From: Megasphaera stantonii
GTDB taxonomy: Bacteria > Bacillota > Negativicutes > Veillonellales > Megasphaeraceae
DNA: 64,000 nucleotides
Assembly (NCBI RefSeq): GCF_003367905.1
Contig: NZ_CP029462.1
Location: 930,001 to 994,000, forward strand
Direction of reading: 5' to 3'
A program made the translations under genes and the position numbers. Shown one piece after another: positions 6,400 to 39,088 of this stretch. How positions within the stretch are numbered: the stretch's first letter is position 1; each line of letters opens with the position of its first letter. Below the pieces are notes generated by a model. The model had not been told where the DNA came from and did not search any database. It was given only the letters and a program-made list of their open reading frames with translations.

Positions 6400-6435
6400 C
6401 CACTCCTCTCCGGCTTTGATTTCTCCGTCTATTTT

Positions 6436-6464: not shown

Positions 6465-6604
6465 AACGAGAAACGAGAATTGTTAAAAAATTGTTAGAAA
6501 ACTGAAAAAACCTTTTGAGTTTTCTTATAAATAAGATAATAGCATTTTATCCTGCAAATGGCAAGAAAAAAGATGGCTCCGTCCCGTCCCGCCAAAAACA
6601 GATG

Positions 6605-6613
6605 TGGTATAAT
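6605..6613 (+). promoter_or_regulatory. Extended -10 promoter of the nitroreductase gene
   Basis: TGG followed by a consensus TATAAT lies about 48 bases upstream of the ATG. No good -35 box is visible at 17 bases, which suits an extended -10 promoter. Confidence 0.5.
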
Positions 6614-6660
6614 ACATACAGACAAGTATAGTTATATTTCTATTAAAAGGAGCGATACGC

Positions 6661-7185: not shown

Positions 7186-7197
7186 TTTCATACCGTT

Positions 7198-7246
7198 AAA
7201 AAAACTGCAGCAATGCCCTATGCGCCGGCACTGCTGCAGTTTTTAT
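7198..7246. terminator. Bidirectional terminator
   Basis: AAAAACTGCAGCA and its complement TGCTGCAGTTTTT flank a short loop, with A and T runs on both sides. It lies between convergent genes and serves both the nitroreductase and the serine hydrolase. Confidence 0.85.
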
Positions 7247-8013: not shown

Positions 8014-8015
8014 AT

Positions 8016-8498: not shown

Positions 8499-8510
8499 AG
8501 CTGTACCTCC

Positions 8511-11092: not shown

Positions 11093-11659
11093 TCATTTGG
11101 CGCTAGGCTTCCTCCATCGGCGCCGCTGCGCTTCAATGAGGGCCCAAACGGCGTCGACATCGTCGATAGCGGCGTATTCATATTCCCGTTCCCGTATGAG
11201 TTCATTAAAAAAAGTAAAATGAAAATCATGCCAGTCCACAGGCCTCTTGTCGAAAAGAATCGTCCCCGACCCGTCGCCATTCTCCCTCTTCTCCAAATAC
11301 CGCAGGGTATGATAAAACCGGCAAACCAGGCGGCTGCGGTACACCGTAAGAATCCGCTCGCTCGTCAGCACGTAGGCAATCTGCCGCCGCTGCCAGCGGC
11401 GATGGACAAAGCGGCCGACGCTGCAATATGCTCCTGCCGCTATAAAAGGCAGGCCGAATAAGGGCGCGACGAGACCCCACAGGCCCGGAACAGACAAGGC
11501 TGCGCCTTCCCAACTCAGGGCAAACAGAAAAAACAATAGTCCTATAGGAACCTTCAGTATATCCGATGGTTTGACCAGGTTGCGCCACGAGCAGCCCGGC
11601 TTGCCCTGCCACAAAATCCGTTCTCCTTCGTACAGCGAAATCGCCGTTCCTTTCTCCAT
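11093..11659 (-). CDS. Membrane protein with bacterial PH-like domain
   Basis: 188 residues from the ATG at 11659 (GAGGTG upstream). Residues 1-30 are polar (EGERILWQGKPG, a pattern typical of bacterial PH-domain membrane proteins), two hydrophobic segments follow (about 38-85), and after them comes IAYVLTSERILTVYRSRLV, the first strands of a YdbS/YdbT-like PH domain. Function is unknown in this family; an envelope or stress role is sometimes suggested. It stands alone between terminators. Confidence 0.6.
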   Translation of the reverse strand: MEKGTAISLYEGERILWQGKPGCSWRNLVKPSDILKVPIGLLFFLFALSWEGAALSVPGLWGLVAPLFGLPFIAAGAYCSVGRFVHRRWQRRQIAYVLTSERILTVYRSRLVCRFYHTLRYLEKRENGDGSGTILFDKRPVDWHDFHFTFFNELIREREYEYAAIDDVDAVWALIEAQRRRWRKPSAK

Positions 11660-11731
11660 CGCCGACACCTCTTTATCTCCGCTGCGCCCGGCAGCTTTAC
11701 CCTGCCGGAACCAGCATACAATCAGCTGCAC

Positions 11732-11769
11732 AAAATCCCTGCAAAGGAATTTACTTTACAGGGATTTTT
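11732..11769 (-). terminator. Likely terminator of the symporter gene
   Basis: AAAATCCCTG and CAGGGATTTT form a 10-base-pair stem around a 17-base loop, about 60 bases after the stop at 11832. The U-run on the minus strand is short. Confidence 0.6.
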
Positions 11770-11831
11770 CATATGCAGGTTATTTAATTATACCATAGGA
11801 TCTGCCGCGGGGAAACTCGCGAAGCCTACCG

Positions 11832-13280
11832 TCAATGCTGAGCCGGTACGGCCTTCGTCTTGCCTTCCTGTACGGCAGCCGGTTCGACGCCTTCCATGTG
11901 GATGGCGTTGCTGCGCGTCACGGCGCTGATGCCGACAAAGAGGACGCCGCAGACAATCCATTCGGCATAAATGACATGCGGCAGAACGCGGACGGCCGGT
12001 ACGAACATCCAGGCTACGAGAACGACGACCGAAGCCAGAATCGTATAGAAGGCGGCTGCGCGGGAGCAGTATTTCGGCGCATACATCGTCATGAGAACGA
12101 TGACGCTGAACGCCGTCATGAGGCTGAGGCCGGCCATGAGCGTGGAGATGATGCCGCTGATGGTCAAGGCAAAGCTCAGCGTAAGCAGGCCGAGGAGGAA
12201 TACGGAAATACGGGTAACGTTGAGATACTTGCTGTCGGACATATTCGGGTCGACGAAGCGTTTGTGAATGTCATGGGAATACAGCGTCGCCGAGCTGAGC
12301 AGGAGATTGCAGGCGCAGCTGACGTCGGCTGCCCAAAGAGCCGCCAAGGTAATGCCGGCCAGCCACGGGTCGAGGGACATGATGACCTGGGGCAATGCAG
12401 CCGTAGCCGAAATGTTGGGATATAATTCCGAAGCGATGACGCCGAGGAGGGCGCTGACGAAACCAATCGGCAGCATGAGCAGTCCGCCGATGATGAAGCC
12501 TTTGCGGGCCGTGTGCACGTCTTTTGCACCAAGGGAAATCTGGATGATGCTCTGAAGGGACAGGTTGACCGTAATGAGGACGATAATCCACGTAACGATG
12601 GTCATGGGTCCTACGCCGTCGATGAAATCGAGGCCGTGAGGCATGGGCAGGTTCATCTGGATTTGATCCATGCCGCCGGCCATGCGCACTGCCAGTACGA
12701 CGGCCATGAGGATGCCGGCGTATTTCAGGGACACGTTCATGAGGTTCGTAATGCTGGCCGACCACATGCCGCCGATCAGGGTTACACCGATGAAGACGAC
12801 AGCGCTCATGAGCATCCCTGTCGTCGGCGTGAAGATTTCCGGCATAAGGGCGGCGAGAATCATGCCGCCGGCAACGTACTGCATGCTCATGACGACGAGC
12901 TGTACGATGATCTGGCAAATGATGCCGATAATCATGCTCTTCTTATCGTAATACCGTTCCAGCATTTCGGGAATCGTCGTGATGTTGAGGCTGCGGTATT
13001 TTTTAGCGACGGTCATGCCCATGACGATCGCGCCGATGCCCCAGGCCGTCGTGTACCAGCCGGCGGAAAGACCGGCTTTATAGGCCTGTTCGGCAACGCC
13101 GATAGTCGACGCGCCGCCGACGGCCAGGCCGACGATAGAAACCATGATAAGCGGCGTCGTGAGCTGACGGCCGGCCAGGATATAGTTTTCCGCCTTCCCG
13201 GCAGCGCGGTGCTTCGTGTACCAGCTGATTAAGAAAATCGTACAAATGTACAAACCTACGACAATAACTGAACTGTTCAT
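11832..13280 (-). CDS. Sodium:solute symporter (SSF family), predicted phenylalanine/aromatic transporter
   Basis: 482 residues with about 13 hydrophobic segments, the normal SSF size. Typical family segments are the N-terminal YILAGRQLTTP, the Gly/Ala-rich VGGASTIGVAEQAYKAG, and MWSASITNLMNVSLKYAG. SSF proteins couple Na+ to uptake of amino acids, sugars or carboxylates, and the family alone does not give the substrate. The leader is a T-box whose specifier reads UUC, which suggests induction by uncharged tRNA-Phe and therefore uptake of phenylalanine or a precursor. The ATG has an AGGAGG site. The gene appears to be the only one in its transcript. Confidence 0.85.
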   Translation of the reverse strand: MNSSVIVVGLYICTIFLISWYTKHRAAGKAENYILAGRQLTTPLIMVSIVGLAVGGASTIGVAEQAYKAGLSAGWYTTAWGIGAIVMGMTVAKKYRSLNITTIPEMLERYYDKKSMIIGIICQIIVQLVVMSMQYVAGGMILAALMPEIFTPTTGMLMSAVVFIGVTLIGGMWSASITNLMNVSLKYAGILMAVVLAVRMAGGMDQIQMNLPMPHGLDFIDGVGPMTIVTWIIVLITVNLSLQSIIQISLGAKDVHTARKGFIIGGLLMLPIGFVSALLGVIASELYPNISATAALPQVIMSLDPWLAGITLAALWAADVSCACNLLLSSATLYSHDIHKRFVDPNMSDSKYLNVTRISVFLLGLLTLSFALTISGIISTLMAGLSLMTAFSVIVLMTMYAPKYCSRAAAFYTILASVVVLVAWMFVPAVRVLPHVIYAEWIVCGVLFVGISAVTRSNAIHMEGVEPAAVQEGKTKAVPAQH

Positions 13281-13342
13281 TTGGGTTGCCTCCTAACGGA
13301 TGATATAAAGAAATATAATAGCTAGATTCCCGTTTGATGTAT

Positions 13343-13371
13343 AAAAAAATCGCCCCTCCATGAGGGACGAT
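13343..13371 (-). terminator. Second T-box terminator
   Basis: ATCGTCCCTC and GAGGGGCGAT form a 10-base-pair stem (one G-U) with an AUG loop, followed by seven U. It competes with the antiterminator formed by the second T-box sequence (13377-13390). Confidence 0.85.
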
Positions 13372-13412
13372 GAACTCGCGGTACCACCCTGCTTACCTGC
13401 ATTCCAGAATAC

Positions 13413-13458
13413 AAAAAGGGTGATACCCAAGGGACGAACATCTCCGCGGTACCACCCT
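13413..13458 (-). terminator. First T-box terminator
   Basis: The AGGGUGGUACC of the first T-box pairs with GGUAUCACCCU (one G-U), followed by five U. The T-box nucleotides are therefore used either in the tRNA-stabilised antiterminator or in this terminator stem. Confidence 0.7.
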
Positions 13459-13670
13459 AATAATCTCGAATCAGATCAACTCATAGCAATGTAACGGTCG
13501 CCATACCGGATCGGCCTACTGATTTCTGTTCAGCCTCACAGTTCAGGAAAGAACTTCACGCTGCATCACCTGCCGGTTTACACCGCCCACCGGCTCTCTG
13601 CGAGGGTATTTGCAGCCCTACTTTTTTCCGTCTATACCTTTATCGGGAACTTATATTGTGTCGTGATTTC

Positions 13671-13698
13671 ATTATACGAAAAATAAGAGAATTGTCAA
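13671..13698 (-). promoter_or_regulatory. Promoter of the T-box leader
   Basis: Minus-strand TTGACA (13693-13698) and TATAAT (13671-13676), 16 bases apart, both consensus. Confidence 0.8.
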
Positions 13699-13742
13699 TA
13701 TGCTTTTCTGTAATTTTTCTTATCTCTCAAACGTTAAAGGTT

Positions 13743-14927
13743 TTACTTTGCATGAGCGGAAGACCGGGCGGAAAATACGCGCCGCCGGCCATACCAATAA
13801 ATGGCCGCTGCCGCCGGCAGCGACGTCAGGAGAACGGGATAAAAGAAGGAAATCGGCAGCGCGCCGAACAGCAGGCCGCCGAACAAGGGCCCTAAGGCCA
13901 TGCCTAAATCGATGCCGATATAATAGGTGCTGTTCGCCAACCCCCGCTTCCCTCCGACGGCCACGACGATAGCCAAGGCTTGGCACACGGAACACATCAC
14001 GCCGTAGCTGCCGGCCATGAGCACCGCCGCCGCGATCATTTCCCAAAAGCTGTCCATGACAGCCAACAGGAGGATGCTGCCCGCCGTACAGAGGCAAGCC
14101 ATGAGGAAGAAAAACTGAAAGGATAAGCGGTCGAACAGGTCGCGCATCGCCGTCCGCAGCAACAATAGGGCTACGGCATAAGCCGGAAAAAACATGCCGG
14201 CAGAAAAGGGCAGCCCCTTCGCCTGCACGTACTGTACCAGAAAGGACTGGGTAGCGCAATACGGAATGGTAAACACCATGATGAGGAACGATACGGGCAG
14301 GACGCCTGTATCGACAAACTGATCGGGCAGAAAGCCCTTGCCGGCCGGCGGCAACGGTTCGTTTTTATACGATACGAACTGGATAAGGACGATGATCGCT
14401 GCGGCAAAGGCCGTGGCGACACAGAACGCCGCCCGGTAGCCGAGATGATGATAGCAGTAAATCCCAATGGCCGGCGCCAGGGCCATGGCCAGGGCGTTCA
14501 TCGTACCGTACACGCCCATGCCGGCGCCCATATGCTCTTTCGGCAGCAGCAGGGAAAACCATGTCGACAGGCTGATAGAGCACAGGGCAAAACCAAAGCC
14601 GTTGATAACGCGGGCCGCCATGACGACCTGCGGGCTCCAGGCGAAGACGTATCCGAGGCAGGACGCGATCAGGCACACTGCGCCGATACAGGATAATATG
14701 TATTTCCTCACCCTGTCGGAAAAAGCTCCTACAAAGGACCGTCAGCACAGGGAGCAAAGATTCATCAGGCCGCCGATAAGGCCCATCAGGGCCGCGCTCG
14801 CCCCCAACGAGCCGGAAAATCCGGTAATGATCGGCGTAACTGCCATGGGGCTGGAAAAATAAAAGAATCCCGCCGCCAACAAAAGAACTTGGTCTCTCCG
14901 CTTTCCATCACGCATATGCTCTTTCAC
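13743..14927 (-). pseudogene. MFS transporter interrupted by an in-frame TGA
   Basis: One continuous frame encodes about 394 codons from the GTG at 14927 (GGAG upstream; an ATG at 14915 is also possible), but codon 62 is TGA (14742-14744). Upstream is the first hydrophobic segment (LLLAAGFFYFSSPMAVTPII) and the start of the second; immediately after the stop comes RSFVGAFSDRVRKYIL, the MFS motif A loop, followed by ten more hydrophobic segments. No bases are lost and the frame is unchanged, so one base change explains it. The family exports drugs, sugars or metabolites. UGA recoding is conceivable but unlikely at this loop position. Confidence 0.8.
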
Positions 14928-15010
14928 TCTTTTCTCCGTCCGCCTGCTGCTGTCCATAGCAAGACAGGCCGTTTTTCTGCCTTTATCATATTCCTCCCCG
15001 CCGCCGGCTG

Positions 15011-16123
15011 TCAAGGAATCTCCTCCCGGACGAAGGAACGCAGCAGGATGACCACTTCCGTCTCCTTGGACGACGTATAATGGCTGCGGAATAATTTCCC
15101 CAGCAGCGGAATATCTCCCAATATCGGCACCTTGCGCAGGCTCTCCACGTCTTCCTTGCGGATGAGTCCGCCCAATACCAGCGTCCTTCCGGGCAGCATG
15201 CGAACGACCGTCTTGGCCTGACGCGTGGCGATGCGGTAGGCCTTCATTTCATTGACAAATACAGGCGTGCTGACTTCAGCCTCGATAGCCGCCGTCACCG
15301 TCCCGTCGTCGTGAATGCGCGGCACATAGCGGAGCTTCACGCCGACGTCCTTGTACTCCGTCGTCGCCGTTTTTTCACCGCCGCTCATGTATTCCGTCAC
15401 GACGGGAATTTTATCGCCGATAAGGACGCTCGCCTCCCTGCCGTTCAGGGCAGCCATGCGAGGCCTGGCCAGTACGGAGGCCTGGCCCTTTTCTTCCAGC
15501 GCCTGTATTTGGGTGGCGAAGGAAAATCCCTCATGTCCGGCGCCGCCGCTCACGCTGGACCAATTCCATTCGACGCCGGCATGGCGCAGGGCGCTCCGAT
15601 CAATAGAGGCAATCTCTACCTCGACGTCGACCTGCCGCGGCTTCGTATCCAGCGCCGTGACGAGGTCCTGCACGGCGCGATGCTCCCGCGGCGTCGCGCC
15701 GACGACGAGCGTATTCGTATCGTCGTAGCAGCGGACGTCTCCGTCGGGCACCATAGCCCGGACGGCCTCCTGCACGTCTGTCGGGACGGCGTAGCGGAGC
15801 CTCCACGTCCGCAGGGATTTCGCTCCATCCCGTTTCTTCCCGGCCGTCATGGTCCGCACAGGCCCCTCTTTTTCGTAATACAGGTTTTGACTTGCAGCGA
15901 TAGCGTCCAGCGCGTCCTCAACGGTAACGTCGTTTATATGCATGGTCATCGTCCCCTGCACCGTATCGTCGACGATGAGGTTTATATTGCCGCTGCGGGC
16001 CAGCCCTTCCAGCACGGAGCGGATAGGAGCCTCGCGGACGTGAACGGACAAGGAACTGCCAGCCCAAACCGGCCCGTACCATGCGATAGCCATCATAATG
16101 AGGATATATCGGCAAACTTTCAT
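15011..16123 (-). CDS. Compact secretin (PilQ/GspD family)
   Basis: 370 residues, far shorter than PilQ or GspD. It has a signal peptide (IMMAIAWYGPVWAG), an STN/N0-like domain (about 22-78, INLIVDDTVQG), one N1/NolW-like domain (about 105-160, NTLVVGATPREHRAVQDLV), then the secretin core (from VDVEVEIASIDRSALRHAGV) ending with the family signature VPILGDIPLLGKLFRS. Secretins form outer-membrane gates for type IV pili, type II secretion or filamentous phage. The ATG at 16123 has AAGGAG seven bases upstream, better than the ATG at 16129. It follows a PilP/GspC-like protein by 11 bases. No pilin, ATPase or platform gene is near. Confidence 0.88.
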   Translation of the reverse strand: MKVCRYILIMMAIAWYGPVWAGSSLSVHVREAPIRSVLEGLARSGNINLIVDDTVQGTMTMHINDVTVEDALDAIAASQNLYYEKEGPVRTMTAGKKRDGAKSLRTWRLRYAVPTDVQEAVRAMVPDGDVRCYDDTNTLVVGATPREHRAVQDLVTALDTKPRQVDVEVEIASIDRSALRHAGVEWNWSSVSGGAGHEGFSFATQIQALEEKGQASVLARPRMAALNGREASVLIGDKIPVVTEYMSGGEKTATTEYKDVGVKLRYVPRIHDDGTVTAAIEAEVSTPVFVNEMKAYRIATRQAKTVVRMLPGRTLVLGGLIRKEDVESLRKVPILGDIPLLGKLFRSHYTSSKETEVVILLRSFVREEIP

Positions 16124-16134
16124 AGTCATCTCCT

Positions 16135-16686
16135 TTACATGCTTACGGCCGCGCAGATTCCGTCTTTTTCCAGCTGCGCGCCGTCTTGATATACGCTGAC
16201 GACGGTATATCCATCGAAACTGTCCCCTGCGGCGCAGACCAGCGTTTCCCCGCGATGGCGGAACAAAGCCAGATAGGCTCCGTTATGCTCCATCGTGCCG
16301 CAAAGGACGGGAAGCTCCGCAGCCGGAGCCGCCGCGACGGGCCGCGCCTTCTCTGCAGAATCGGCAGCGCTCTTCGGCGCGCTGCCGGCAAATATATCGG
16401 GCAGGGGCCTGCGCCGCAGAGACGGCGCAGTACCTTCGACCAGCCTGCCTTCAGGACGCTCCTCTTCTTCATCCCTGTCAGAGGAAGAAAAAACGGGAGG
16501 CGAAGAACTGATATCGTTCTTCGTCTCCCGTATGATTTCCTGCCGCCCTGACGGAACGCCATCCCAGCCCCACCAGATACCTGCCAAACAAAGCAGGATG
16601 ACTCCATACGGGAGCCATGTGTTTCTGTGATGAGCTGCTGCGTTCCTTACCAGATGCCGAAGGGCCGACAGATTACGCTTTATCAT
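16135..16686 (-). CDS. PilP/GspC-like inner-membrane protein, secretin partner
   Basis: 183 residues from the ATG at 16686: a basic cytoplasmic N-terminus, one transmembrane helix (about 27-43, GVILLCLAGIWWGWDG), a charged low-complexity linker, then a small C-terminal domain (about 125-183) with LPVLCGTMEHNGAYLALFRHRGETLVCAAGDS. That is the layout of GspC/PilP proteins, whose HR-like domain binds the N0 domain of the secretin. Weak primary similarity makes the family call tentative; the position directly before the secretin is the main support. It overlaps the end of galE by 14 bases. Confidence 0.6.
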   Translation of the reverse strand: MIKRNLSALRHLVRNAAAHHRNTWLPYGVILLCLAGIWWGWDGVPSGRQEIIRETKNDISSSPPVFSSSDRDEEEERPEGRLVEGTAPSLRRRPLPDIFAGSAPKSAADSAEKARPVAAAPAAELPVLCGTMEHNGAYLALFRHRGETLVCAAGDSFDGYTVVSVYQDGAQLEKDGICAAVSM

Positions 16687-17668
16687 CGTATCCGTTCGGA
16701 TGGCCGCTGTGCCATTTCCAGGCGTCGGCAATAATCGTTTCAATTTGGCTGTACTGGGGCTGCCAGCCCGTCAGTCGGCGGATTTTTTCCGACGACGCGA
16801 CGAGGGCCGCCGGATCGCCGGCACGGCGCGGGCCTTCTTCGACGGCAAAATCTCGTCCTGTCACGGCCTTCGCCGCCCTTATCATATCGCGCACGCTGAA
16901 CCCGTGCTGCGAGCCCAGGTTGAAGGCCTGAGACTGCCCGCCTTCCGCCAGGTACTGGAGGACGCGGCAATGGGCGTCGGCTAAATCGACGACGTGAATG
17001 TAGTCGCGGATACAGGTGCCGTCTTCTGTAGGATAGTCCGTACCGAAAATAGTGATATGATCCCGTATCCCCTGGGCCGTCTGCAAAATAAGCGGAATGA
17101 GGTGCGTTTCCGGCGTATGGTCCTCGCCGATGCTACCGTCGCGGGACGCGCCGGCAGCGTTGAAATACCGCAGCGCCGCATACCGCAAGCCGTAGGCCCG
17201 GCTGAACTGCGCCAGCATCTGCTCGATCATGAGCTTCGTCTGGCCGTATACGTTCGTCGGGCAATAGGGCATATCTTCCGTAATCGGCGTCTGCTCCGGC
17301 TCGCCGTACACAGCTGCCGTCGAGGAAAATACAACATATTTCACTCCGGCCCGGCGTACGGCTTCCAGCAGGCAGTACGAACCGACGACGTTGTTGTCAT
17401 AGTAAATCGTCGGTTTTTCCATCGATTCGCCGACCTGGCTGTGGGCGGCGAAATGCATGACCGCGTCGATGCCTTCTTCTGTCAAAAGAGCTCTCACGGC
17501 GTCGACGTGATGAATATCTTCGACGACGAGGCGCACGCCGTCGGGCACGGCGCCGCGATGGCCCCGCGATAAATTATCGAGGACGACGACGCGGCAGCCC
17601 CGTTCGAGCAAGGCCCGCACGGTATGGCTGCCAATGTACCCGGCGCCGCCTGTAACTAATACGTTCAT
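16673..17668 (-). CDS. galE: UDP-glucose 4-epimerase
   Basis: 331 residues, the full GalE length. It has the Rossmann motif GGAGYIGSH (about 7-15), the catalytic Ser/Tyr/Lys set in SSTAAVYG and YGQTKLMIE (YxxxK), and the substrate region RYFNAAGA. It interconverts UDP-glucose and UDP-galactose with bound NAD, supplying galactose for surface glycans. It starts one base after the pgi stop, so pgi-galE form a sugar-nucleotide operon that continues into the secretin pair. Confidence 0.96.
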   Translation of the reverse strand: MNVLVTGGAGYIGSHTVRALLERGCRVVVLDNLSRGHRGAVPDGVRLVVEDIHHVDAVRALLTEEGIDAVMHFAAHSQVGESMEKPTIYYDNNVVGSYCLLEAVRRAGVKYVVFSSTAAVYGEPEQTPITEDMPYCPTNVYGQTKLMIEQMLAQFSRAYGLRYAALRYFNAAGASRDGSIGEDHTPETHLIPLILQTAQGIRDHITIFGTDYPTEDGTCIRDYIHVVDLADAHCRVLQYLAEGGQSQAFNLGSQHGFSVRDMIRAAKAVTGRDFAVEEGPRRAGDPAALVASSEKIRRLTGWQPQYSQIETIIADAWKWHSGHPNGYDDKA

Positions 17669-17669
17669 A

Positions 17670-19109
17670 TTAACCTTCCTGCAGTTTCTTCAAGCGGCCG
17701 CCGAGGAATTTCTTGTACACTTCCACGCCGGGCTGATTGAAAGCGTCGACGTTGGCAAATTCGCCTTCGTACGCAATGGACAAGCACAGCATAAACATGA
17801 CTTCACCCAAATGATAGGGCGTCAGTTCGGGCAAAATGTAGTTGGCGTTGGGACGGCCGTCGCCGATCAGGGCTTCCGCATTCGAGCTGCGGGCCGCTTC
17901 CAAAATGCTGCTCAGGGGCAAACCGCTGAAGGCAGCCAGCTTCGGATATTCGTCGTACATGTGGGGAACGACGACGTCGTCCTTCCAGTTGGCGATGGAA
18001 ACGAACTGGACGACCTTATCCTTCGGGCCTTCCTGGTGTTCCTGCGTCTGGGCGTGCATGTCCGTCGTGCCGACGGCGACGATAGGCGTGCGGCCGTAGT
18101 TGACGACGTTGCCCTGCTTGTCGAGGCGTTTGCCCAAAGATTCGGCCAGGAGCTGAATGTACCATTCCGACAGGGATTTCAGGCTGTCCGCATAGGGCAT
18201 GAGAACTTCCAGGTCGCGGCCGTATTTTGCGCCGGAAATATATTTCAGCACGCTGTTCAGCAAGGCCGGATTCTGCCAAATATCGGGATTCTGGCAGGCC
18301 TTGTCCATATCCCTTGCGCCGGCTAAGAACTGGCGGATATCAAAGCCGACCAGAGCGCCGACGAGGAGGCCCACTTCGGAGAACACGCTGAACCGGCCGC
18401 CGACTCCATCGGGGACATAGAAAATAGGCCAGCCCGATTTTCTCGCCAATCCGTGCAGGAGCGTTTCTTTTTCGCCTTCATGGGGATCTGTCACGGCGAC
18501 GGTTTCAAATTTGATGCCTGCGTCTTCCATCGCCTGGCGGACGACCATGTAATTGGACATCGGTTCGATAGTCGAGCCCGATTTGGAAATGACGACGCCC
18601 ATGACGGTATACCCGGACTTCGCAGCGCTGTCCGCCTTGAGGAATTCGATGAGGCCGCTGACTTTATGGGAATCGACGTTGTTGCCGGCAAAGAAGGCCT
18701 TCGGATAGCCTTTGCGGGCTTCCGTGCTCTTGAGGTTCCAAAATTCGCCGCACTGCACGTCGAAGAGGACCTTGCCGCCTAAATAAGAACCGCCGATACC
18801 GAAGAATACGACTGCGTCGACGCGGTTGCGCACCTGGCGGGCCAATTCTTCCATTGCCATGATCCGTTCCGGATTGTTGATATTGCCTTCCACGATGTAG
18901 GGAAGCTGCGGGAACAGTACGGCTTCCGGTTCGCCGTCTTTAGATAAATGACCTGCCATGATGCCGGTCTTGCGCATTTCCATAACCGCTTCATGGGCTT
19001 TCGTATAGGCCGGCTCCATGGCCTTGACGTCTTCTTCCGTCACCTTGCCCGGGCCGTATAAATTTTCTACGTCAAATACAAAACCAGATTTTAAAGTAAT
19101 CTTTGCCAT
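17670..19109 (-). CDS. pgi: Glucose-6-phosphate isomerase
   Basis: 479 residues. Recognisable are GIGGSYLGGK (phosphate-binding region), VVISKSGSTIEPMSNYM, the GGRFSVFSEVG segment and HQEGP near the C-terminal active site. It interconverts glucose 6-phosphate and fructose 6-phosphate. It is of the shorter, Firmicute-like class rather than the 550-residue proteobacterial type. First gene of pgi-galE-pilP-like-secretin, behind an extended -10 promoter. Confidence 0.96.
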   Translation of the reverse strand: MAKITLKSGFVFDVENLYGPGKVTEEDVKAMEPAYTKAHEAVMEMRKTGIMAGHLSKDGEPEAVLFPQLPYIVEGNINNPERIMAMEELARQVRNRVDAVVFFGIGGSYLGGKVLFDVQCGEFWNLKSTEARKGYPKAFFAGNNVDSHKVSGLIEFLKADSAAKSGYTVMGVVISKSGSTIEPMSNYMVVRQAMEDAGIKFETVAVTDPHEGEKETLLHGLARKSGWPIFYVPDGVGGRFSVFSEVGLLVGALVGFDIRQFLAGARDMDKACQNPDIWQNPALLNSVLKYISGAKYGRDLEVLMPYADSLKSLSEWYIQLLAESLGKRLDKQGNVVNYGRTPIVAVGTTDMHAQTQEHQEGPKDKVVQFVSIANWKDDVVVPHMYDEYPKLAAFSGLPLSSILEAARSSNAEALIGDGRPNANYILPELTPYHLGEVMFMLCLSIAYEGEFANVDAFNQPGVEVYKKFLGGRLKKLQEG

Positions 19110-29327: not shown

Positions 29328-30410
29328 TTATACGCCGGCAATGCGCCCGGCCATGGCGGCTGCCCGTTCTTCCACGCCAGGACACTGCAGAATGCTGTTC
29401 GGGTCGTTTGCCGTTTCGATCTGGGCAAAGCGCGGCGGCAGGGCAAAATTCTTATTGCAGTTCATCGCGTCGATGACCTGCTCGGCTACGATGTCGCCGC
29501 CGCTGTATCCGGAAACGACGAGAGCATAGACCCTCTTCTGTGAAAAGGATGCGAAGTCCTTGCGGAACAAAGCCGTCAGGCGATTGAAAAAAGCCGTAAT
29601 ATTGGCGCTCACGGCGTCGTTGTAATTGGGGCAAATCAAGACGACGGCGTCGCCGGCGCGAATGGCCGGATAGACCCGCTCGACGATGACGCCGCCGTAA
29701 AAGCATTCGCCCTTTTCACCGAAATGGCGGCACGCTTCGTAGCTGCAGCCCCGGCAGTCGACGACGGCTCCGTTGCGCAGGGAAATTTCTTCGACATCTA
29801 CGTCCGCAGGCAGCTTCTTCCGTATCATTTCCCACAGCAGCAGCGTATTCGACGTCTTGCGGCTGCTGGCGTGGAGCACGACGACGCGGCGCGCCGGACG
29901 GCCTCCTTGGGAAAGTTCCGCGGCAAAGGCCGCCGTCTTACGTACCAGACAGGCCGCGCTTTCTTTATAGGCCTGCAAGTTCGTCTCTCCCAGCAGCATG
30001 GCCTGCGTATTAAAATTATACAGAGAGCCCGTCGCTTCGACGAGAGGCTTCCCCGGAAAGGCGCAGCCAGCCTGATTTGCCATGAAAATCAGCTCGCGGC
30101 CTATTTTTTTTGTGAATAATTCGCCCGGCCCGTCGACGAGGACCGCGCCGGCCCAGCCGTCCAGACAGTCTGCCTGAAGGGCTAAGGCCGAAATCAGCTG
30201 CGCGTATTCGCAGCTGAAGCCGCCGGCAGGCAGGGCTACGGCAAACAACACGGCCCGTCCCGCCGGCAGGGCGGCGGAGCTGCAGGCCTCGGCAAAGGCT
30301 GCGCCGTCGACGGCACGGTATTCCCATCCATGCAAAGCATAGGTCAGCACGCTTTCTAGCCGACTCGTATCGGCGCATTCGCGCCAGCCGATCTTCACGA
30401 CTGTCAACAT
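29328..30410 (-). CDS. Two-module flavodoxin-like oxidoreductase (iron-sulfur flavoprotein-like)
   Basis: 360 residues. The C-terminal half (about 170-360) is an NADPH-dependent FMN reductase/iron-sulfur flavoprotein domain: LHASSRKTSNTLLL (FMN phosphate loop), a cysteine cluster C-RGC-..C-..C (about residues 220-238) and CPNYNDAVSANITAFFNRL. The N-terminal half (1-160) has strand-helix repeats (AVLVDGPGEL, MANQAGCAFPGKPLVEATGS) resembling a degenerate flavodoxin-like fold. Substrate is unknown. It follows the dehydrogenase-like gene by 14 bases and is the last of the three genes that begin with the 1625-residue protein, which suggests a shared redox pathway. Confidence 0.7.
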   Translation of the reverse strand: MLTVVKIGWRECADTSRLESVLTYALHGWEYRAVDGAAFAEACSSAALPAGRAVLFAVALPAGGFSCEYAQLISALALQADCLDGWAGAVLVDGPGELFTKKIGRELIFMANQAGCAFPGKPLVEATGSLYNFNTQAMLLGETNLQAYKESAACLVRKTAAFAAELSQGGRPARRVVVLHASSRKTSNTLLLWEMIRKKLPADVDVEEISLRNGAVVDCRGCSYEACRHFGEKGECFYGGVIVERVYPAIRAGDAVVLICPNYNDAVSANITAFFNRLTALFRKDFASFSQKRVYALVVSGYSGGDIVAEQVIDAMNCNKNFALPPRFAQIETANDPNSILQCPGVEERAAAMAGRIAGV

Positions 30411-30424
30411 GCTTCATTCCCCCT

Positions 30425-31411
30425 TTACACCAGACGGCACAGGTTGAGATACGCCGTTTTCAGCCGCTCGTACAGGGCGTCGCAGACTGCAGCGTCTTCA
30501 TATACGACGCCGTCCCGGGTCATCTGATTCCGGATGCCGAAAAACGCGCCGGCCCCTTCGTCTCCCAAGTACACGGAGCCGTAATGCCACTGTTCCCGCA
30601 GGGTCAGGAGAATCGATAAGGCCGCCGACGACAAGGCCGGAGCAATGTACGGCTTATATCCCAATTCGCGGACAGCCATGTTGGCCCCGATGACCAAGTC
30701 GGTCAGGGCGCGGGAGCGCCCGTCGTCGTAGTCTGTCAGGCTGTCGGCCAGCACCAAGTCCCCGCCGTGAGGCCCGAAGGCCCGCCCTTCGGTCAGGTAG
30801 GAGCGGAATTCTTCGCGGCGTTCCGCATAGTAGCAGGCCCGGGCGTTCATGACGCCTAAGCCGTAGCCCTGTACCTGCGCCGGCCTGAGCCCCGACGCCA
30901 TCCAAAAGGCCTTGCACAACGGGTCTACCGGGTCGGACACGATGCAGGCCAGGCCGGCAAATTTCGCCGCCTTGGCCAGCCCGGCAAAATGGCGTACCAA
31001 TTCTGTATTCGCCGCCAGCTGGGCCATGCGCACGTCGCCCTGGGCGCCGACAGGCGGCACGCCCTTGCTGGCGCAGAAGACGAATACGTCGCAGTCAAAC
31101 AGCGCTTCTTCCCCGACGGCGTACACGGGAGGCAGCGACGGCATGCCGCTTCCCTCCCAATCGGCGAAGGGATATCGAATCTGATTGATTTCCATTTCCA
31201 GCCGCCTGATATTTTGTTCATTAATATCGCAGATGCCGATGGATTCGACGACGCCGGCTCCCAGAAGGCGCAGGCCGATGAGCATGGTCATGCCCACGTC
31301 TCCCAAGGCTAAAATATGAACTCTATACGTTTGTTTCCCTAAGGGGCTGCCCGTCAGCGGCAAGGGCGACGTCACCGCCGCCTCGCCGGGCAATTCATGA
31401 ATATACCGCAC
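30425..31411 (-). CDS. Lactate/malate dehydrogenase-like NAD-binding protein
   Basis: 328 residues. A Rossmann fold starts at about residue 31 (VHILALGDVGMTMLIGLRLLGAG) with an acidic residue ending strand 2 (GICDIN), then VFVFCASKGVPP (family loop) and SDPVDPLCKAFW. The usual LDH/MDH catalytic signatures (DxxR and GEHGDS) are altered: FGPHGGDLVLADSL stands where GEHGDS would be. Thus the fold is LDH/MDH-like but the substrate is probably different. GTG start at 31411, one base after the stop of the large gene, with the ribosome site inside its end. Confidence 0.65.
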   Translation of the reverse strand: MRYIHELPGEAAVTSPLPLTGSPLGKQTYRVHILALGDVGMTMLIGLRLLGAGVVESIGICDINEQNIRRLEMEINQIRYPFADWEGSGMPSLPPVYAVGEEALFDCDVFVFCASKGVPPVGAQGDVRMAQLAANTELVRHFAGLAKAAKFAGLACIVSDPVDPLCKAFWMASGLRPAQVQGYGLGVMNARACYYAERREEFRSYLTEGRAFGPHGGDLVLADSLTDYDDGRSRALTDLVIGANMAVRELGYKPYIAPALSSAALSILLTLREQWHYGSVYLGDEGAGAFFGIRNQMTRDGVVYEDAAVCDALYERLKTAYLNLCRLV

Positions 31412-31412
31412 C

Positions 31413-34400
31413 TTATCGTCCTTCCCTTCCAGCGGCGCTCCGCATCAGATCTTCTTCCATAGAGCCTTCCTTCCACTGCATGCGCAGGAGCCGCTCAATA
31501 TCGTTTTCAATGAACCGGGTCGGGTCCATGTTTTCATCGAATTTTACGCCCACGTCGATGTCGGGAATCCGGGGATACGTAAAGACCTCGCCGAGGCGTT
31601 TCAGCGTCAGGCGGCGTTCGTACGTTTCCTGATAGACGTCCTGCAATACCCGCATGATGTGGGCGGCGTTCTGCAGGCACGTCAGGGAATACCAGTAATG
31701 AGCCAGGAAATCGCCGCGGCTGACAAACTCGGGATTGACGTAGGGCAGGATCAGGTTGATAGCCGGGTTGCTGTCGTAGCCGCTGTAGTTGTGGGCGTTG
31801 TCGATGCTGTCGCCGCCGATATAAGGATAGCAGTCCTTTTCGTTGAGCCAGACTTCCAGCGTCGGCAGGAAATAGGCGCTTTCGGCCTTCATGTTCTTTT
31901 CGACCATCATGTCCATGGCCTGTCCGGTCATGACGCCGACGAGAACCTCCTTGACTTCGATGTCGCACTTGTCCAGGTACGGCGTGAGCATCCGCATGCG
32001 GTGGCCCTTGTGCAGCAAGTCGTCGATGAGGATGACCGGCCTGTCAAAGGACTTGATCGTCCGGACCTGATTTTCTACAGGCGAATAATGATGTGATTCG
32101 GCCAGGGTAAATTCCTTGACGTACCGGTCGAAGTACTTGCCGATGTGCAGGCTCTTCGTCACCGTATTCGGCACCAGGACGTTGCTCAGAGCCTTGCCGA
32201 AGGGCACGGACATATAGGGGCCGCGCCGCTTTTTCTTGTCCTCGACAGTGGAGACGCCGTTGATTTCAGCGACTTTGTTGATGATCTTGTTGTGGAAGGA
32301 GCTCATGTTAAAGGACAGGAGCAGCTTGCCCGGGTAAATCAGCTTGAGCACGGCCAGCAAGTTGTTGTGGGCTTCGTGCAGGGCTTCGCGGACGAGAGGA
32401 TTCTTGTTGAAGGGGTTTTTGATGACCGTTTCGACGTCCTTAAACAAGACGATAGGCGACTTCATATCTACGACGTACAGGGGATGCTCGCTGCCTTCCG
32501 GCGCGATGTTGACGAAGCCCTGCAGCTCGAGGGCGTCGATGATTTCGGCATCGTAGCCCGCTTCGTCTACAGGACGGTACACGGCGTAGGCAAAGTCGCG
32601 GGAAATGAGCTCCGTCAGAATTTCCGTAATGGTAATCTGGGCCACGTTGTCGATAGTCGACGTGTCGTCGGCGTAGAAGAAGCCAATGCAGGCGATGCTG
32701 CCGCCGGCGGCGTTGCGGATATGCGAGGCCAGCTGGGAATCGCCGATTTCCTTCAGCAAATCCCGCGTGCCGATGCGGTGGGCCGCGGCATAGGCGATCA
32801 TCGTCCGTTCCTGCCGGGCGTCGTCGACGTACAGAGTCCGCACGGTTTCCCGCTCGATGTACTTGTCGAGGATATCCATGTTGTACCCCTTATTCCACAG
32901 CTTGTTGCAGATCGGCCACAGGCTTTCGGCGCCGCGGGGCTTAAAGGCGCCGATGCCCAGCTCCCGCGCTTCCAGGACGTGCTTATAGGCCGGTTCGCGC
33001 AGGTACATGTTGTTGTCGTAAATGAAATTCTGGGCTACGGCGTCGATGAGGTTGGATATGTCGCGATTCAGGTCGATGTTTTCGCGGATCTTCGTCGAGC
33101 TGATATCTTCGTAGAATTTGTCGAGAGTCAAATACACGACCTTTCCCGTAATGCCGTGGCCGCCGTCGTCGTGGTCCCGCCCTTCATTTTCCCTCGTCTC
33201 GCGGGCGAAGGCGATATGGTTTACCGTATGGATGGAATCCTTCGTCGGCGCGGCCTTGTAAGCCGAAGCGTTTTCGATGACGTCGGTCCCGACGGCGATG
33301 TACAGGTCCTTCTTGGCAAAAATCGCCTTCAGCCGGGCTACGTCCTTCGGATTGGCAATGTTGACGGGAATATCGTCGGGGAAGGGATACATGTCCTCTT
33401 CGTCGGCGACGGACATATTCATGATCTTGCGCCGCATGAGGCGGGGCTGGGTATGCTTGGACCAGGAAAATTCATCGAGGGCCAGATATACGTCGAAGCC
33501 CAGGTCGCGAATCTTGCAGGCCACGGCCTTATGCCCCAGGCTGAAGGGGTCGAAGGTCCCCGGGTAGAAGCAGGCCTTGCGGGCCGGCGGGAAGGAAAAG
33601 GCGCCGTTCTGGAACTCATGATGGCCGATATAGCGGTAAATATGATTCAGGACGGCGGCGTTGCTGTAGAAATCCAGAACACCTTCGGGATTTTCGTCGA
33701 GCAGGACCAGGAGCTTTTTGTAGCAGTGCAGGAATAAAAAGTCCTTCTGCTCCATGGCCATGACCGGGCTGTGAAAGATAAACTTCCCGATATCGCGGAA
33801 GGCGTCACGGCTCAGCTCGTCGTCGTAGTGGGCGTAAGCCTTGATCATGATGTACAGCAGGCGGCGCTGACGCCGTTCGTTGACGTCCCCATCGTCGCCG
33901 AACTCCTCGGCAAATTCGGAGAAGTTTTCCAAAATGACGCCGACGGTGTTGACGATAGACGACGCCAGCTGGATGTTGACCGTCAAAATCTGCGACGAAA
34001 TCGTATTGATAAATTCGTCAAATTCCTGCGGCGGCAGCTTCAGAATCATGCGGCCCAGGAATTCCGGCACGTACTTCGATATCTGGGGGTCGCCGATTTC
34101 CAGGCCGTTGAACAGTTCGACGGCCAGCTCATTGCGCTGCGAGTACGTCATGTTGGCAGCGATGCGCAGCAGGCTTTCCCCTGCCGCCTGGCGGACAAAG
34201 ATGGACTCGCTGATTTTCAGAAGGTTCGTCAGATGCATGCCCAGATGCATGACGTCGCCCTTGTCGCACGTATCGTCCATATACCGCATCATCAGCTCTA
34301 TATTGGCGACCTTGATGCCCCAGTGGGTCCCCATCTTCAAGTCGATGAGGAACAGGCTGCCTTCATGCTCGGAAAAGGCCTTTTTATCGGCGGGCAAATT

Positions 34401-36290
34401 CATCACCGACAGGAGGTCGTCGTAATATTGTTCCTCCGTATATCCGTCATAGAGGCAGCGCTTCGTGTTCAGGGCGGCGACGCGCAGGTTCTGGGAGGAA
34501 GACTGCAGGGCCGTTTCTATAAAGGGGCGGACTGCCGTCATAAATTCCTCAGGAATGTCGCTGCGCTTCATGTCGTCCAGGACCTTCAGGAGCATGATAT
34601 ACCGCTCTTCCGGATAATTGCGGCGCTCGAAATACTTGGCCATCACGCGGATGTAATCGCCGCGGTCCTTCGCCGGGCAGGAATCCAGTACGGCTTCGAC
34701 GAAGCTGCTCAGGCAATAGCCGATCCACAGCTTGTGCTGCTCCGTAAACCGCATTTCCGGATAGATGATCATGTCCAGATACTGATCAAACAGGGACAGG
34801 CTCGTGACGACCTTATGGGGAAGGGACACGCCCTCAGGCAGCTCCTTTGTGTATTTTTCGTTGAAATTAGCGACAATGCGCCCCATGAGGGCCGCCGACT
34901 GGAAGCGGATGTCCCCTTCTTTATGAGACAGCAGCTCGTACAGGAATTTCAGCGTCATGACCTTTTGATGCTCTGTCATGTACGTCGAGTACTCTTCGAA
35001 AATGCCGATATAGGTGCGGACGTTTTTCCACAGCTGCTCGCTGCGGGCCGCTTCGATGAGGTTGCCGAAATCGCTGTCGTCGCGGAAGATACTCATGAGG
35101 CGGATGTTGTGGGCAATGGCCGCGTACTTCAGCTGTTCGACGACTTCTCCCTCCGCCAGGAGCACCATTTCCCGCGGCTCTGGAACGTCGGGCTGGACGT
35201 GGTCCCGCGAAAGGTCGGCCGGCAGCTCGACGACGCCCTTTTCCCGCATGAACGACTCGAAATCGGCCAGCTTGGCGTATACCTTCTGGTACCGGTGGCG
35301 CTTCGCCTCGTCTACGTTATCCAATTTTCCTAAAATGACGTCGAAGGCTTCCTTCAGAGTATAGAAATGAACGACTTCCCTGCCCTGGGCGTCGCGGCTG
35401 CTCTTGACCCGGAAATCGGCGTAGATGAGCAGCAGCGATTCGACGGAAAGATTTTCCAGCTCCAAATCCCAGACGGAATGGTTAGCCGCGATGTGTCCGA
35501 TGCCGGACAAGCCGACGCGGCGGCAGCAGGCGTCGGTATAGTAATAGTGCAGGTAGGGCACGCGCTTTTCTTCGTTTTTCTTGCAGCCGTATTTCCCCAG
35601 GTCATGGCACAGAGCCGCGCCGGAAATGAGGGCCAGGTCGACGGGCTCGCCGAGGAAGGCCAGCTGACGCGCCGCATGCAGGGCGACGTAATGGACGCCG
35701 GCAATATGGCCCAGCGTGTTGAAGGGGGAAATTTCCGAGCCGATGCGCATGAATTCATAGATATACTGATCTTCCAGCATCTTGATCATGTGCAGGTATT
35801 CCCGCGTATAGCCCTGCTTCATAATTTCTTCATCGTCGAGAAAATCGAAATCGACGGTCGGGTCAAAGGGCAGCACGGCCCGTTCGTACTGATACAATCC
35901 GTGCAGCAGCTGCATGAGCACGAGGCGCCCCAGGCGGAATTCGCCGTCGCCGCTGTGCGCTACGGGCTTGCCGTCCCAGCCTTCCCACTGAGCCGCCGTA
36001 ATCGGAAAGAGCCTCTCTAAGACGGCGCAGTAGCAATGGGCCAGCCAGCCGCCTTCCGGCTCTTCGGCCAAACAGGATATGTACCGCCACGCCGCCTCCA
36101 GCACTTTGGCGGAAACATACCGTCCCCGGCTGTCGCGGCACCCTTCCAATTCGCCGGCCAGCTTCATGACGCCGTTGGCCTTCATAAACGCCGGGCCGTC
36201 GCCGGGCTTCATGCCGGCAGCCTTTAAAAAGGCCGAATCAGACAAGGCCTTGTACAAAAAGGTCTTCAGGTCTAATTTTTTTTCTTCCAT
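31413..36290 (-). CDS. 1625-residue multidomain protein: HD, helical repeats, nucleotidyltransferase and PRTase-like domains
   Basis: The longest gene in the window. Visible parts in order: unknown helical N-terminus (1-170); an HD phosphohydrolase-like region with HVALHAARQ-like helices and HDLGK (about residue 228); a long alpha-helical repeat region resembling HEAT/ARM repeats (about 370-890); an NMN-adenylyltransferase-like domain starting FYPGTFDPFSLGH (about 909, H-x-x-H-like motif) and ending SSTKIREN (about 1067); a mixed region with GNAT-like strands (about 1140-1270); and a phosphoribosyltransferase-like segment VILIDDLLHKGHRM (about 1415), in which the usual T-G-x-T PRPP loop is changed. 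The ATG has AAGGAGAAGG upstream. NAD or nucleotide salvage is only a guess. Confidence 0.8.
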   Translation of the reverse strand: MEEKKLDLKTFLYKALSDSAFLKAAGMKPGDGPAFMKANGVMKLAGELEGCRDSRGRYVSAKVLEAAWRYISCLAEEPEGGWLAHCYCAVLERLFPITAAQWEGWDGKPVAHSGDGEFRLGRLVLMQLLHGLYQYERAVLPFDPTVDFDFLDDEEIMKQGYTREYLHMIKMLEDQYIYEFMRIGSEISPFNTLGHIAGVHYVALHAARQLAFLGEPVDLALISGAALCHDLGKYGCKKNEEKRVPYLHYYYTDACCRRVGLSGIGHIAANHSVWDLELENLSVESLLLIYADFRVKSSRDAQGREVVHFYTLKEAFDVILGKLDNVDEAKRHRYQKVYAKLADFESFMREKGVVELPADLSRDHVQPDVPEPREMVLLAEGEVVEQLKYAAIAHNIRLMSIFRDDSDFGNLIEAARSEQLWKNVRTYIGIFEEYSTYMTEHQKVMTLKFLYELLSHKEGDIRFQSAALMGRIVANFNEKYTKELPEGVSLPHKVVTSLSLFDQYLDMIIYPEMRFTEQHKLWIGYCLSSFVEAVLDSCPAKDRGDYIRVMAKYFERRNYPEERYIMLLKVLDDMKRSDIPEEFMTAVRPFIETALQSSSQNLRVAALNTKRCLYDGYTEEQYYDDLLSVMNLPADKKAFSEHEGSLFLIDLKMGTHWGIKVANIELMMRYMDDTCDKGDVMHLGMHLTNLLKISESIFVRQAAGESLLRIAANMTYSQRNELAVELFNGLEIGDPQISKYVPEFLGRMILKLPPQEFDEFINTISSQILTVNIQLASSIVNTVGVILENFSEFAEEFGDDGDVNERRQRRLLYIMIKAYAHYDDELSRDAFRDIGKFIFHSPVMAMEQKDFLFLHCYKKLLVLLDENPEGVLDFYSNAAVLNHIYRYIGHHEFQNGAFSFPPARKACFYPGTFDPFSLGHKAVACKIRDLGFDVYLALDEFSWSKHTQPRLMRRKIMNMSVADEEDMYPFPDDIPVNIANPKDVARLKAIFAKKDLYIAVGTDVIENASAYKAAPTKDSIHTVNHIAFARETRENEGRDHDDGGHGITGKVVYLTLDKFYEDISSTKIRENIDLNRDISNLIDAVAQNFIYDNNMYLREPAYKHVLEARELGIGAFKPRGAESLWPICNKLWNKGYNMDILDKYIERETVRTLYVDDARQERTMIAYAAAHRIGTRDLLKEIGDSQLASHIRNAAGGSIACIGFFYADDTSTIDNVAQITITEILTELISRDFAYAVYRPVDEAGYDAEIIDALELQGFVNIAPEGSEHPLYVVDMKSPIVLFKDVETVIKNPFNKNPLVREALHEAHNNLLAVLKLIYPGKLLLSFNMSSFHNKIINKVAEINGVSTVEDKKKRRGPYMSVPFGKALSNVLVPNTVTKSLHIGKYFDRYVKEFTLAESHHYSPVENQVRTIKSFDRPVILIDDLLHKGHRMRMLTPYLDKCDIEVKEVLVGVMTGQAMDMMVEKNMKAESAYFLPTLEVWLNEKDCYPYIGGDSIDNAHNYSGYDSNPAINLILPYVNPEFVSRGDFLAHYWYSLTCLQNAAHIMRVLQDVYQETYERRLTLKRLGEVFTYPRIPDIDVGVKFDENMDPTRFIENDIERLLRMQWKEGSMEEDLMRSAAGREGR

Positions 36291-37852: not shown

Positions 37853-37882
37853 ATCATACCATATTTTACGGTTAATTGTAAA
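37853..37882 (-). promoter_or_regulatory. Candidate hybrid promoter of ccpN at the IS end
   Basis: On the minus strand a -10 TATGAT (37853-37858, preceded by TGG) belongs to the chromosome, while TTTACA (37877-37882) lies in the terminal repeat of the IS, 18 bases away. The original chromosome had only ATGCAT at about this distance, a worse -35 box. Its activity is inferred. Confidence 0.5.
37857..37869. repeat. Left target-site duplication of the IS30 element
   Basis: TACCATATTTTAC, identical to 39089-39101, directly abuts the left terminal repeat. Confidence 0.85.
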
Positions 37883-39088
37883 ATGAATTTGAACAGGTAA
37901 TCAAAAAAACAAAAATCCATAGTGAAGCTTCATGTTAAAATGGTTTTGCGAGAAATCATCAACAAAGGAGCAATCACTATGGATCACATCCATTCTAACA
38001 CAATTGAGGACGTACGTACACCCGGCCGCCATCTTTCTTTGGAGGAACGTGGCATGATTCAGGCCCTGCATCGCCAGGGGCTTTCCCTTCGCAACATCGC
38101 TGCTGCAGTAGGATGTGCTCATACGACTGTTTTCTATGAACTTCGGCGTGGAACGCCGGATCGGAAAAGCAAGCACGGTCGTGCCCCTCAGTATATGGCA
38201 AAGCGCGGTCAGAAGGCTTATGCAGAGAATCGCAAGAACTCCAGGAAGCCTTGTAAAATCGATCATGACGACTGCGAGCTGTTTATCCAATGGATGGTGG
38301 AACGAGTCCGCCAGGAACGCTGGTCACTGGATGCCTGCGTTGGCTATGCTAGGCGAAATAAGCTATTTACTCCGGAACAGATTCCCTGTACCAAGACGCT
38401 CTACAACATGCTTTGGGCTAACAAACTTCCACTGTCACTCTTCGAGGTACCGCAGGTCTTGAAGCACAAACGCCGCCGCAAATGGGTGCGTAAGAACAAA
38501 CGTATGAAGGGCCGCTCCATTGAGGAACGTCCTGCCGTCGTCGATGATGGTACCGAGATGGGCCACTGGGAAGTGGATACGGTCGTTGGTCGGCGCGCAG
38601 GTCGTGAAGCAGTAGTCTTCACCGCTGTTGAAAAGGTTACGCGCAACTACATCGCTATCCGAATTCCTGGACGTACCTGCGCCGGCGTTGAAGCTGCTCT
38701 TGCACAGTTGCAGGAGCGATATGGCGCAGAGTACTTCAGCCAGATCTTTAAGACGATGACGGCCGATAACGGTCCAGAGTTTGAGAACTTATCGCAGTTC
38801 GAGAGCCTCGGTACTAAGATATACTTTACACATCCGTACAGCTCATGGGAGCGGGCTCAGAACGAACGCCACAATGGCCTGCTGAGGGATTTCATCCCAA
38901 AGGGCATGTCCATGGAGCGGTTCTCTGATGAGGATATCCTGAACATGGCAGATACGCTGAACCAGCGCCCACGGCGTGTTTTGGGCTACCATACGCCGTC
39001 AGAGCTATTTGATGCATTCCTCGATGAAGTTTATGCTAGTGAGTGTGTTTCCTGATTATGGTTGTTCAAATTCAACTTGCAATTTACC
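37870..39088 (+). mobile_element. IS30-family insertion sequence, 1219 bp, complete
   Basis: Terminal inverted repeats of about 26 bases with 4 mismatches begin GGTTAATTG on the left and GGTAAATTG on the right (as complement) and share the block TGAATTTGAACA. They abut 13-base direct repeats exactly. One intact transposase gene fills it. It lies between ppsA and ccpN in opposite orientation to both. Confidence 0.93.
37979..39055 (+). CDS. IS30-family transposase
   Basis: 358 residues from the ATG at 37979 (AAAGGAG eight bases upstream). N-terminal HTH_38 (LSLEERGMIQALHRQGLSLRNIAAAVGC) and the DDE core: Asp in EMGHWEVDTVVG, Asp in TADNGPEF, Glu in WERAQNERHNGLLRD. The frame is complete with no stops, so it could be active. 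Confidence 0.95.
   Translation: MDHIHSNTIEDVRTPGRHLSLEERGMIQALHRQGLSLRNIAAAVGCAHTTVFYELRRGTPDRKSKHGRAPQYMAKRGQKAYAENRKNSRKPCKIDHDDCELFIQWMVERVRQERWSLDACVGYARRNKLFTPEQIPCTKTLYNMLWANKLPLSLFEVPQVLKHKRRRKWVRKNKRMKGRSIEERPAVVDDGTEMGHWEVDTVVGRRAGREAVVFTAVEKVTRNYIAIRIPGRTCAGVEAALAQLQERYGAEYFSQIFKTMTADNGPEFENLSQFESLGTKIYFTHPYSSWERAQNERHNGLLRDFIPKGMSMERFSDEDILNMADTLNQRPRRVLGYHTPSELFDAFLDEVYASECVS

Follow-up and report, generated by a model that had tools for sequence, protein, structure and literature searches.

Two described systems set the background for the locus studied here. In mycoplasmas, NadD and YqeK are fused, and the HD domain of the fusion proofreads nicotinamide adenine dinucleotide (NAD) synthesis (PMC9426524); in GlnD, a nucleotidyltransferase is joined to an HD domain that takes the transferred group off again (PMC4285133). 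Both are precedents for the logic of the protein we examine, not families that include it. That protein, called A, is encoded in Megasphaera stantonii together with a member of the lactate/malate dehydrogenase (LDH/MDH) superfamily (B) and a flavoprotein (C). The analysis covered a 64,000-nucleotide stretch, hereafter the window, spanning bases 930001-994000 of the complete genome (NZ_CP029462.1; 2,652,760 bases). We found no described system corresponding to the fusion, the three-gene unit, or its presumed task, and all the parts come from known families. Our literature search, which covered open-access papers and had subscription journals and preprints outside it, returned no description of this architecture.

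The genes, and the domains of A, are as follows, with NMNAT standing for nicotinamide mononucleotide adenylyltransferase and PRTase for phosphoribosyltransferase.

31413-36290, minus strand: gene A, 1625 aa, with HD, HEAT, NMNAT-like, GNAT-fold, and PRTase-like parts in that order
35166..35948, minus strand (A ~115-375): HD phosphohydrolase domain, from conserved metal ligands
33606..35153, minus strand (A ~380-895): HEAT/ARM-type solenoid, from Pfam HEAT, AlphaFold2 (AF2), and Foldseek
32991..33578, minus strand (A ~905-1100): NMNAT/NadD-like nucleotidyltransferase, from Pfam, PDB profile, Foldseek, and hhalign
32457..32963, minus strand (A ~1110-1278): GNAT-fold domain, from structure comparison
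31791..32438, minus strand (A ~1285-1500): tentative PRTase-like domain, with the loop DDLLHKGxR
30425-31411, minus strand: gene B, 328 aa, LDH/MDH-superfamily protein
29328-30410, minus strand: gene C, 360 aa, two-module flavoprotein with a C-terminal FMN_red domain

The stop codon of A lies 1 base from the GTG start of B, and a gap of 14 bases separates the stop of B from C. An earlier note on this DNA had described the same layout, and its coordinates, GTG start, and both gaps all match ours. The motifs that it placed in A lie, to within a few residues of its figures, at 229-233 (HDLGK), 909-920 (YPGTFDPFSLGH), 1064-1071 (SSTKIREN), and 1419-1432 (VILIDDLLHKGHRM). A terminator scan of the region gave hits no more numerous than in shuffled sequence.

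Conservation and shared inheritance of the three genes

A, B, and C are a real conserved unit. Among 300 Negativicutes genomes searched, 18 carry full-length A, the window's own included, and the homologues in the 17 others are full-length at 57-75% identity. The nearest named homologue of A is that of M. cerevisiae (75% identity). The full-length homologues occur in 11 of the 15 genomes of the window's genus and in two genera of another family. B and C stand directly 3′ of A, with order and strand kept, in all 17 other loci, in most of which the intergenic gaps range from a slight overlap to ~33 bases. Full-length homologues with this order in 17/17 loci mean that the unit is not a product of chance, and they answer the question raised in the earlier note of whether the three genes stay together in Negativicutes. 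They do, and their range extends far beyond that class.

A single-sequence scan of genome contigs for A returned no match. A wider scan, which took one genome for each species and used aligned C-terminal parts of A as query, found 59 A loci in Megasphaera, Anaeroglobus, Colibacter, Acidaminococcus, Aminicella, Emergencia, Hornefia, Mogibacterium, Mobilibacterium, Baileyella, Eubacterium pyruvativorans, Sedimentibacter, Tissierellales, and Atribacteria. The unit ranges through Megasphaera, Acidaminococcus, Anaerovoracaceae, Sedimentibacter, Acetoanaerobium, and Atribacteria. In public loci with enough sequence, B is next after A in 61 of 62 and C is next after B in 57 of 61, so that a check for missing partner genes beside A homologues, which the earlier note had proposed, found the partners in place almost throughout. 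The exceptions are locus L056 and, with B present but C not nearby, three Atribacteria loci (L112, L113, and L116). In Acetoanaerobium noterae, the three genes are consecutive; this 2.63-Mb record (NZ_CP154629.1, L168, with A-B-C at 11614-18753) is listed as a plasmid in PLSDB and looks like a chromosome. A viral origin was rejected, as viral contigs gave no match.

A phylum sample of 398 Bacillota genomes, counted regardless of kinship, contained strong matches to A in seven. Strong matches to B were confined to the same seven genomes (240-594 bits, next best 32), as were strong matches along the full length of C (278-613 bits; the next best, at 36, covers only the C-terminal domain), and the full-length two-module form of C was found in this sample only alongside A and B. 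One of the seven, genome G615 (the source of L056), has A on contig 1 and B with C together on contig 29, so the three genes are tied by more than position.

Phylogenetic trees, which were made quickly and include some long branches, place the Negativicutes versions of A among those of Clostridia, mostly Anaerovoracaceae, with Eubacterium pyruvativorans falling inside the Negativicutes part. This nesting suggests lateral transfer. In pairwise comparison, the trees of A, B, and C have 25, 20, and 15 of 46 splits in common, whereas shuffled labels gave no more than 3; the genes have therefore moved as a group. Because the three occur and travel together across many amino-acid-fermenting anaerobes, they very probably share one job. 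Two sets of loci carry broken copies, through either sequencing error or decay: A and C are interrupted in Megasphaera sp. NM10 (L033/L063), and A is split in Anaeroglobus geminatus (L047/L089).

Folds and active sites

The NMNAT-like domain that the earlier note had proposed is borne out by several comparisons. Pfam CTP_transf_like (PF01467) matches A at 908-1071 (E 1.6e-9), a profile of the region finds NadD in the PDB (7.5e-9), Foldseek likewise aligns it with NadD (2e-6), and hhalign pairs it with the genome's own NadD at 96%. The HIGH-superfamily motifs GxFDPxxxxH and SSTxxR are present; the motifs GxFDPF..H, SWSK, GxD, and SSxxIR are invariant or nearly so among A homologues, and G911, F913, D914, H920, S1064, S1065, and R1069 are invariant in 53 of them. 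Against the NadD equivalog model TIGR00482, A scores 31.4 bits, under the cut-off of 112.45. The same genome encodes, elsewhere, a NadD of 213 aa with a YqeK of 200 aa next after it; NAD need not, therefore, be the product of A, and the idea that it is the cell's NadD-YqeK was ruled out on the same ground.

The HD domain, also claimed earlier, is supported by Pfam (E 0.015) and by metal ligands in the pattern H..HD..H..H..D, of which H195, H229, D230, H271, and D292 show no variation, and H266 almost none, across the 53 diverse homologues. Its closest NCBIfam relatives are TIGR00295 and the DVU_1551-type nucleoside triphosphate (NTP) transferases (NF045665). All 30 of the 30 A HD domains compared match the C-terminal part of the latter (~189-315 of 359; best 1.1e-8); the rest of that model is unmatched, and A differs from the family in its NMNAT-like nucleotidyltransferase and its HEAT, GNAT-fold, and PRTase-like parts. 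Against the genome's own YqeK, hhalign gave a probability of 5% over 35 columns, and NCBIfam listed other HD families.

A thus resembles the NadD-YqeK pair and the mycoplasma fusion in coupling an NMNAT-type nucleotidyltransferase with an HD phosphohydrolase. Unlike them, it places a HEAT scaffold between these domains, adds GNAT-fold and PRTase-like ones, scores far under the NadD cut-off, has an HD domain that does not look close to YqeK, and shares its genome with normal NadD and YqeK. The nadD/yqeK analogy drawn in the earlier note accordingly stands only at the superfamily level, with HD and YqeK aligning over at most 35 residues (5%) and a normal pair elsewhere. GlnD also carries a nucleotidyltransferase and an HD domain on one chain, with opposite activities, but its nucleotidyltransferase comes from another superfamily than the HIGH-type domain of A and acts on protein. 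No GlnD model was reported for A in the Pfam and NCBIfam family scans.

Between these two domains of A lies an all-helical solenoid, which the earlier note had listed as a helical-repeat domain. Pfam HEAT matches A at 447-475 (E 3e-4), the AF2 model of the N-terminal half (mean predicted local distance difference test score, pLDDT, of 83) contains only helices in this part, and Foldseek matches it best to karyopherins and to the PP2A scaffold. The note's list of domains held for HD, HEAT, and NMNAT-like, had weak support for PRTase, and overlooked a GNAT-fold domain at ~1110-1278. In structure comparison of the C-terminal half, GNAT dominates among the matches listed (best Z 13.9, root-mean-square deviation 2.9 over 149 residues; pLDDT of this stretch mostly 68-94). 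The acetyl-CoA pyrophosphate loop (R/QxxGxG/A) was not seen in 30 aligned members, read by eye.

The last region is PRTase-like at most tentatively, given weak family matches and a non-canonical loop. Pribosyltran (PF00156) is below its cut-off in the window's A (E 0.15, 15 bits against 26.3) and is touched by 24 of 35 members at E<1 (best 2.7e-4). Type I PRTases carry a phosphoribosyl pyrophosphate (PRPP) loop with the signature DDxxxTGxT, which 0 of the 35 members fit; their loop is mostly DDLLHKGxR. A sequence profile of the region found no significant relative in the PDB, and its AF2 model is of low confidence.

B belongs to the LDH/MDH fold family by Pfam Ldh_1_N (E 3.1e-6, 27.7 bits against a cut-off of 27). 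Like those enzymes, when aligned with solved LDHs, it keeps the substrate arginines and the catalytic histidine as invariant equivalents of Arg109 (R128), Arg171 (R191), and His195 (H215), the last sitting in GPHG. Unlike them, B carries Met188 in place of Asp168 and Asp160 in place of Asn138, and these replacements are found in 67 of 67 homologues. Turnover of lactate or malate by B is doubtful on these two replacements, in line with the earlier view that its substrate is probably neither. A further difference is an extra N-terminal region of ~90 residues in B of the deep-branching lineages (L110, L113, L058, L059, L060, L108, L109, and L147); in Megasphaera and Anaerovoracaceae it is lost or strongly reduced.

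The C-terminal domain of C is that of the NADPH-dependent flavin mononucleotide (FMN) reductases (PF03358, E 5.3e-20, 72 bits against a cut-off of 24). C departs from these reductases by an added N-terminal module and by a CX2CX4CX8C motif within the FMN_red domain, whose C219, C222, C227, and C236 are invariant in 60 of 60 homologues and would be compatible with an iron-sulphur or redox-active site. A profile of C against the PDB gave no match at E<0.001.

Genomic context, proposed function, and alternatives

In the window and in five further Megasphaera, the gene order is phosphoenolpyruvate (PEP) synthase, a helix-turn-helix (HTH)/CBS regulator, PpsR, A, B, and C, then rpmB and recG, so that PpsR adjoins the unit in six Megasphaera. 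Elsewhere, Pta adjoins it (L038, L065, L069, L074, and L089), sdaAA, encoding the alpha part of an iron-sulphur L-serine dehydratase, overlaps the start of A (L058), malic enzyme lies 50 bases upstream (L090), the alpha subunit of oxaloacetate decarboxylase 292 bases upstream (L108), and D-serine ammonia-lyase downstream (L070); some of these and other neighbours were named by eye from homologous sequences. That several unrelated pyruvate-forming or pyruvate-consuming enzymes stand beside the unit, varying with the lineage, suggests that it acts at the pyruvate node. The neighbours in the second Negativicutes family are unrelated.

Our favoured reading, to which we give a probability of about 0.36, is an enzyme that makes and breaks a nucleotidyl bond on a phosphorylated small molecule, built on a HEAT scaffold and partnered by B and C for redox or 2-oxo-acid chemistry. 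A, B, and C would form one functional unit, probably a complex assembled on the scaffold. The NMNAT-like domain would place a nucleotidyl group, probably adenosine monophosphate (AMP) from adenosine triphosphate (ATP), on the small molecule, and the HD domain would hydrolyze such a product, giving a make-and-break pair in one chain. Binding or positioning of the substrate is the probable role of the GNAT-fold and PRTase-like domains, with no catalysis required of them. B, with its LDH fold and retained carboxylate-binding arginines and histidine, and C, a presumed FMN and possibly iron-sulphur protein, would perform or sense the linked 2-oxo/2-hydroxy-acid and flavin redox step; the unit would act at the pyruvate node of amino-acid-fermenting anaerobes. 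Sequence comparison establishes the unit, its shared inheritance, the HEAT, NMNAT, and GNAT folds, and the conserved active-site residues of the HD and nucleotidyltransferase domains; from domain content, conservation, and context we infer all of the chemistry, including the substrate and the direction, as well as complex formation and the pyruvate role.

Several points weigh against this picture. Without the equivalent of Asp168, B may be no dehydrogenase at all; the acidic residue may now sit elsewhere, or B may serve for binding and not as an enzyme. The PRTase assignment at A ~1285-1500 is weak, and the model of the C-terminal half of A has a mean pLDDT of 59.6. The pyruvate pattern, suggestive as it is, was recognized post hoc, and unrelated genes neighbour the unit elsewhere: dnaX in L117, transporters in L068 and L092, and an uninformative context in Acetoanaerobium.

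The main rivals are a protein-directed switch and the synthesis of an NAD-like cofactor. As a switch, A would attach nucleotidyl groups to proteins and take them off through its HD domain, following the logic of GlnD (PMC4285133), while B and C would sense 2-oxo acid or NADH and flavin redox state and set the direction, with pyruvate-node enzymes as targets. A HEAT scaffold is suited to protein partners, neither the GNAT nor the PRTase-like domain looks catalytic, LDH-like B lacks Asp168, and regulators are frequent neighbours (PpsR and HTH-CBS in the window; a sigma-54 activator upstream in L070, L075, L080, L082, L088, and L107). To our knowledge, however, NMNAT-type enzymes of the HIGH superfamily act on small molecules and not on proteins, and no conserved target protein lies beside the unit; we regard the switch as unlikely, though a serious contender. 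Cofactor synthesis would have the PRTase-like domain make a ribotide that A adenylylates to an NAD-like dinucleotide, with HD proofreading and B and C using or finishing the product. The domain set of A does resemble ribotide and NMNAT steps, the three genes co-occur strictly, and a separate NadD-YqeK frees A from making NAD; yet the PRPP loop is non-canonical in 35 of 35 members tested and no transporter or base-making gene common to the loci was found, and we hold this option, too, to be improbable.

If A were instead an extra NadD with a hydrolase clearing faulty dinucleotides, while B and C mended damaged nicotinamide or flavin species, the proofreading by NadD-YqeK fusions (PMC9426524) would be the model to follow. 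The apparent distance of its HD domain from YqeK, its 31 bits against the NadD cut-off of 112, and a spread (11 of 15 genomes of the window's genus) that is oddly patchy for general repair make this quite unlikely. Least credible is an operon for the breakdown of a single amino acid, either lysine or serine, in which A would be a large enzyme dedicated to that task. In some Clostridia the surroundings of the unit do include serine dehydratases, a regulator like that of lysine fermentation, and a BKACE-like gene (by eye), but neighbours vary between lineages and KDD, the lysine-fermentation dehydrogenase family, is over its cut-off in only 1 of 20 genomes; lysine fermentation as a general role was rejected on that count.

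Alongside the favoured make-and-break reading, the broader idea that this is an undescribed nucleotide system falls a little short of even odds. Such a system could produce a new adenylylated metabolite or cofactor, or act as a nucleotidyl switch, with a giant enzyme that makes and breaks its product, coupled to an altered LDH-fold protein and a flavoprotein at the pyruvate node, and moved between classes as a block. Large multi-enzyme fusions with strictly conserved active sites and partners co-inherited across classes are usually a sign of an undescribed pathway or circuit, and the parts here suggest that nucleotides are transferred and removed in connection with redox chemistry. The hosts are anaerobes common in the gut, the mouth, and digesters and include Megasphaera, Acidaminococcus, Emergencia, Anaeroglobus, and Acetoanaerobium.

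Two further proposals were set aside. A, B, and C had no PADLOC model match, which removed anti-phage defence. A tellurium-resistance link had come from L056 in G615, where, at 2381-8800, A lies beside several TerD-like genes, a TelA-like gene, and a citrate-lyase-like gene (by eye); the Ter-associated PRTase_2 (PF15609) is over its cut-off in 1 of 20 genomes. The sigma-54 activator found directly upstream of A in Anaerovoracaceae (~693 aa; 4637-6718 in L070) has an N-terminus related to L-erythro-3,5-diaminohexanoate dehydrogenase (NF052381, 6.8e-40), resembling an enzyme-like sensor, and the same kind of N-terminus is present in all six loci that carry this activator. Finally, the genes for the HTH-CBS regulator and PEP synthase are separated by an IS30-type insertion element at window positions 37870-39088, which is missing from the related Megasphaera loci; it encodes a 377-aa transposase, named by eye, and has 26-nt terminal inverted repeats that are 85% complementary.

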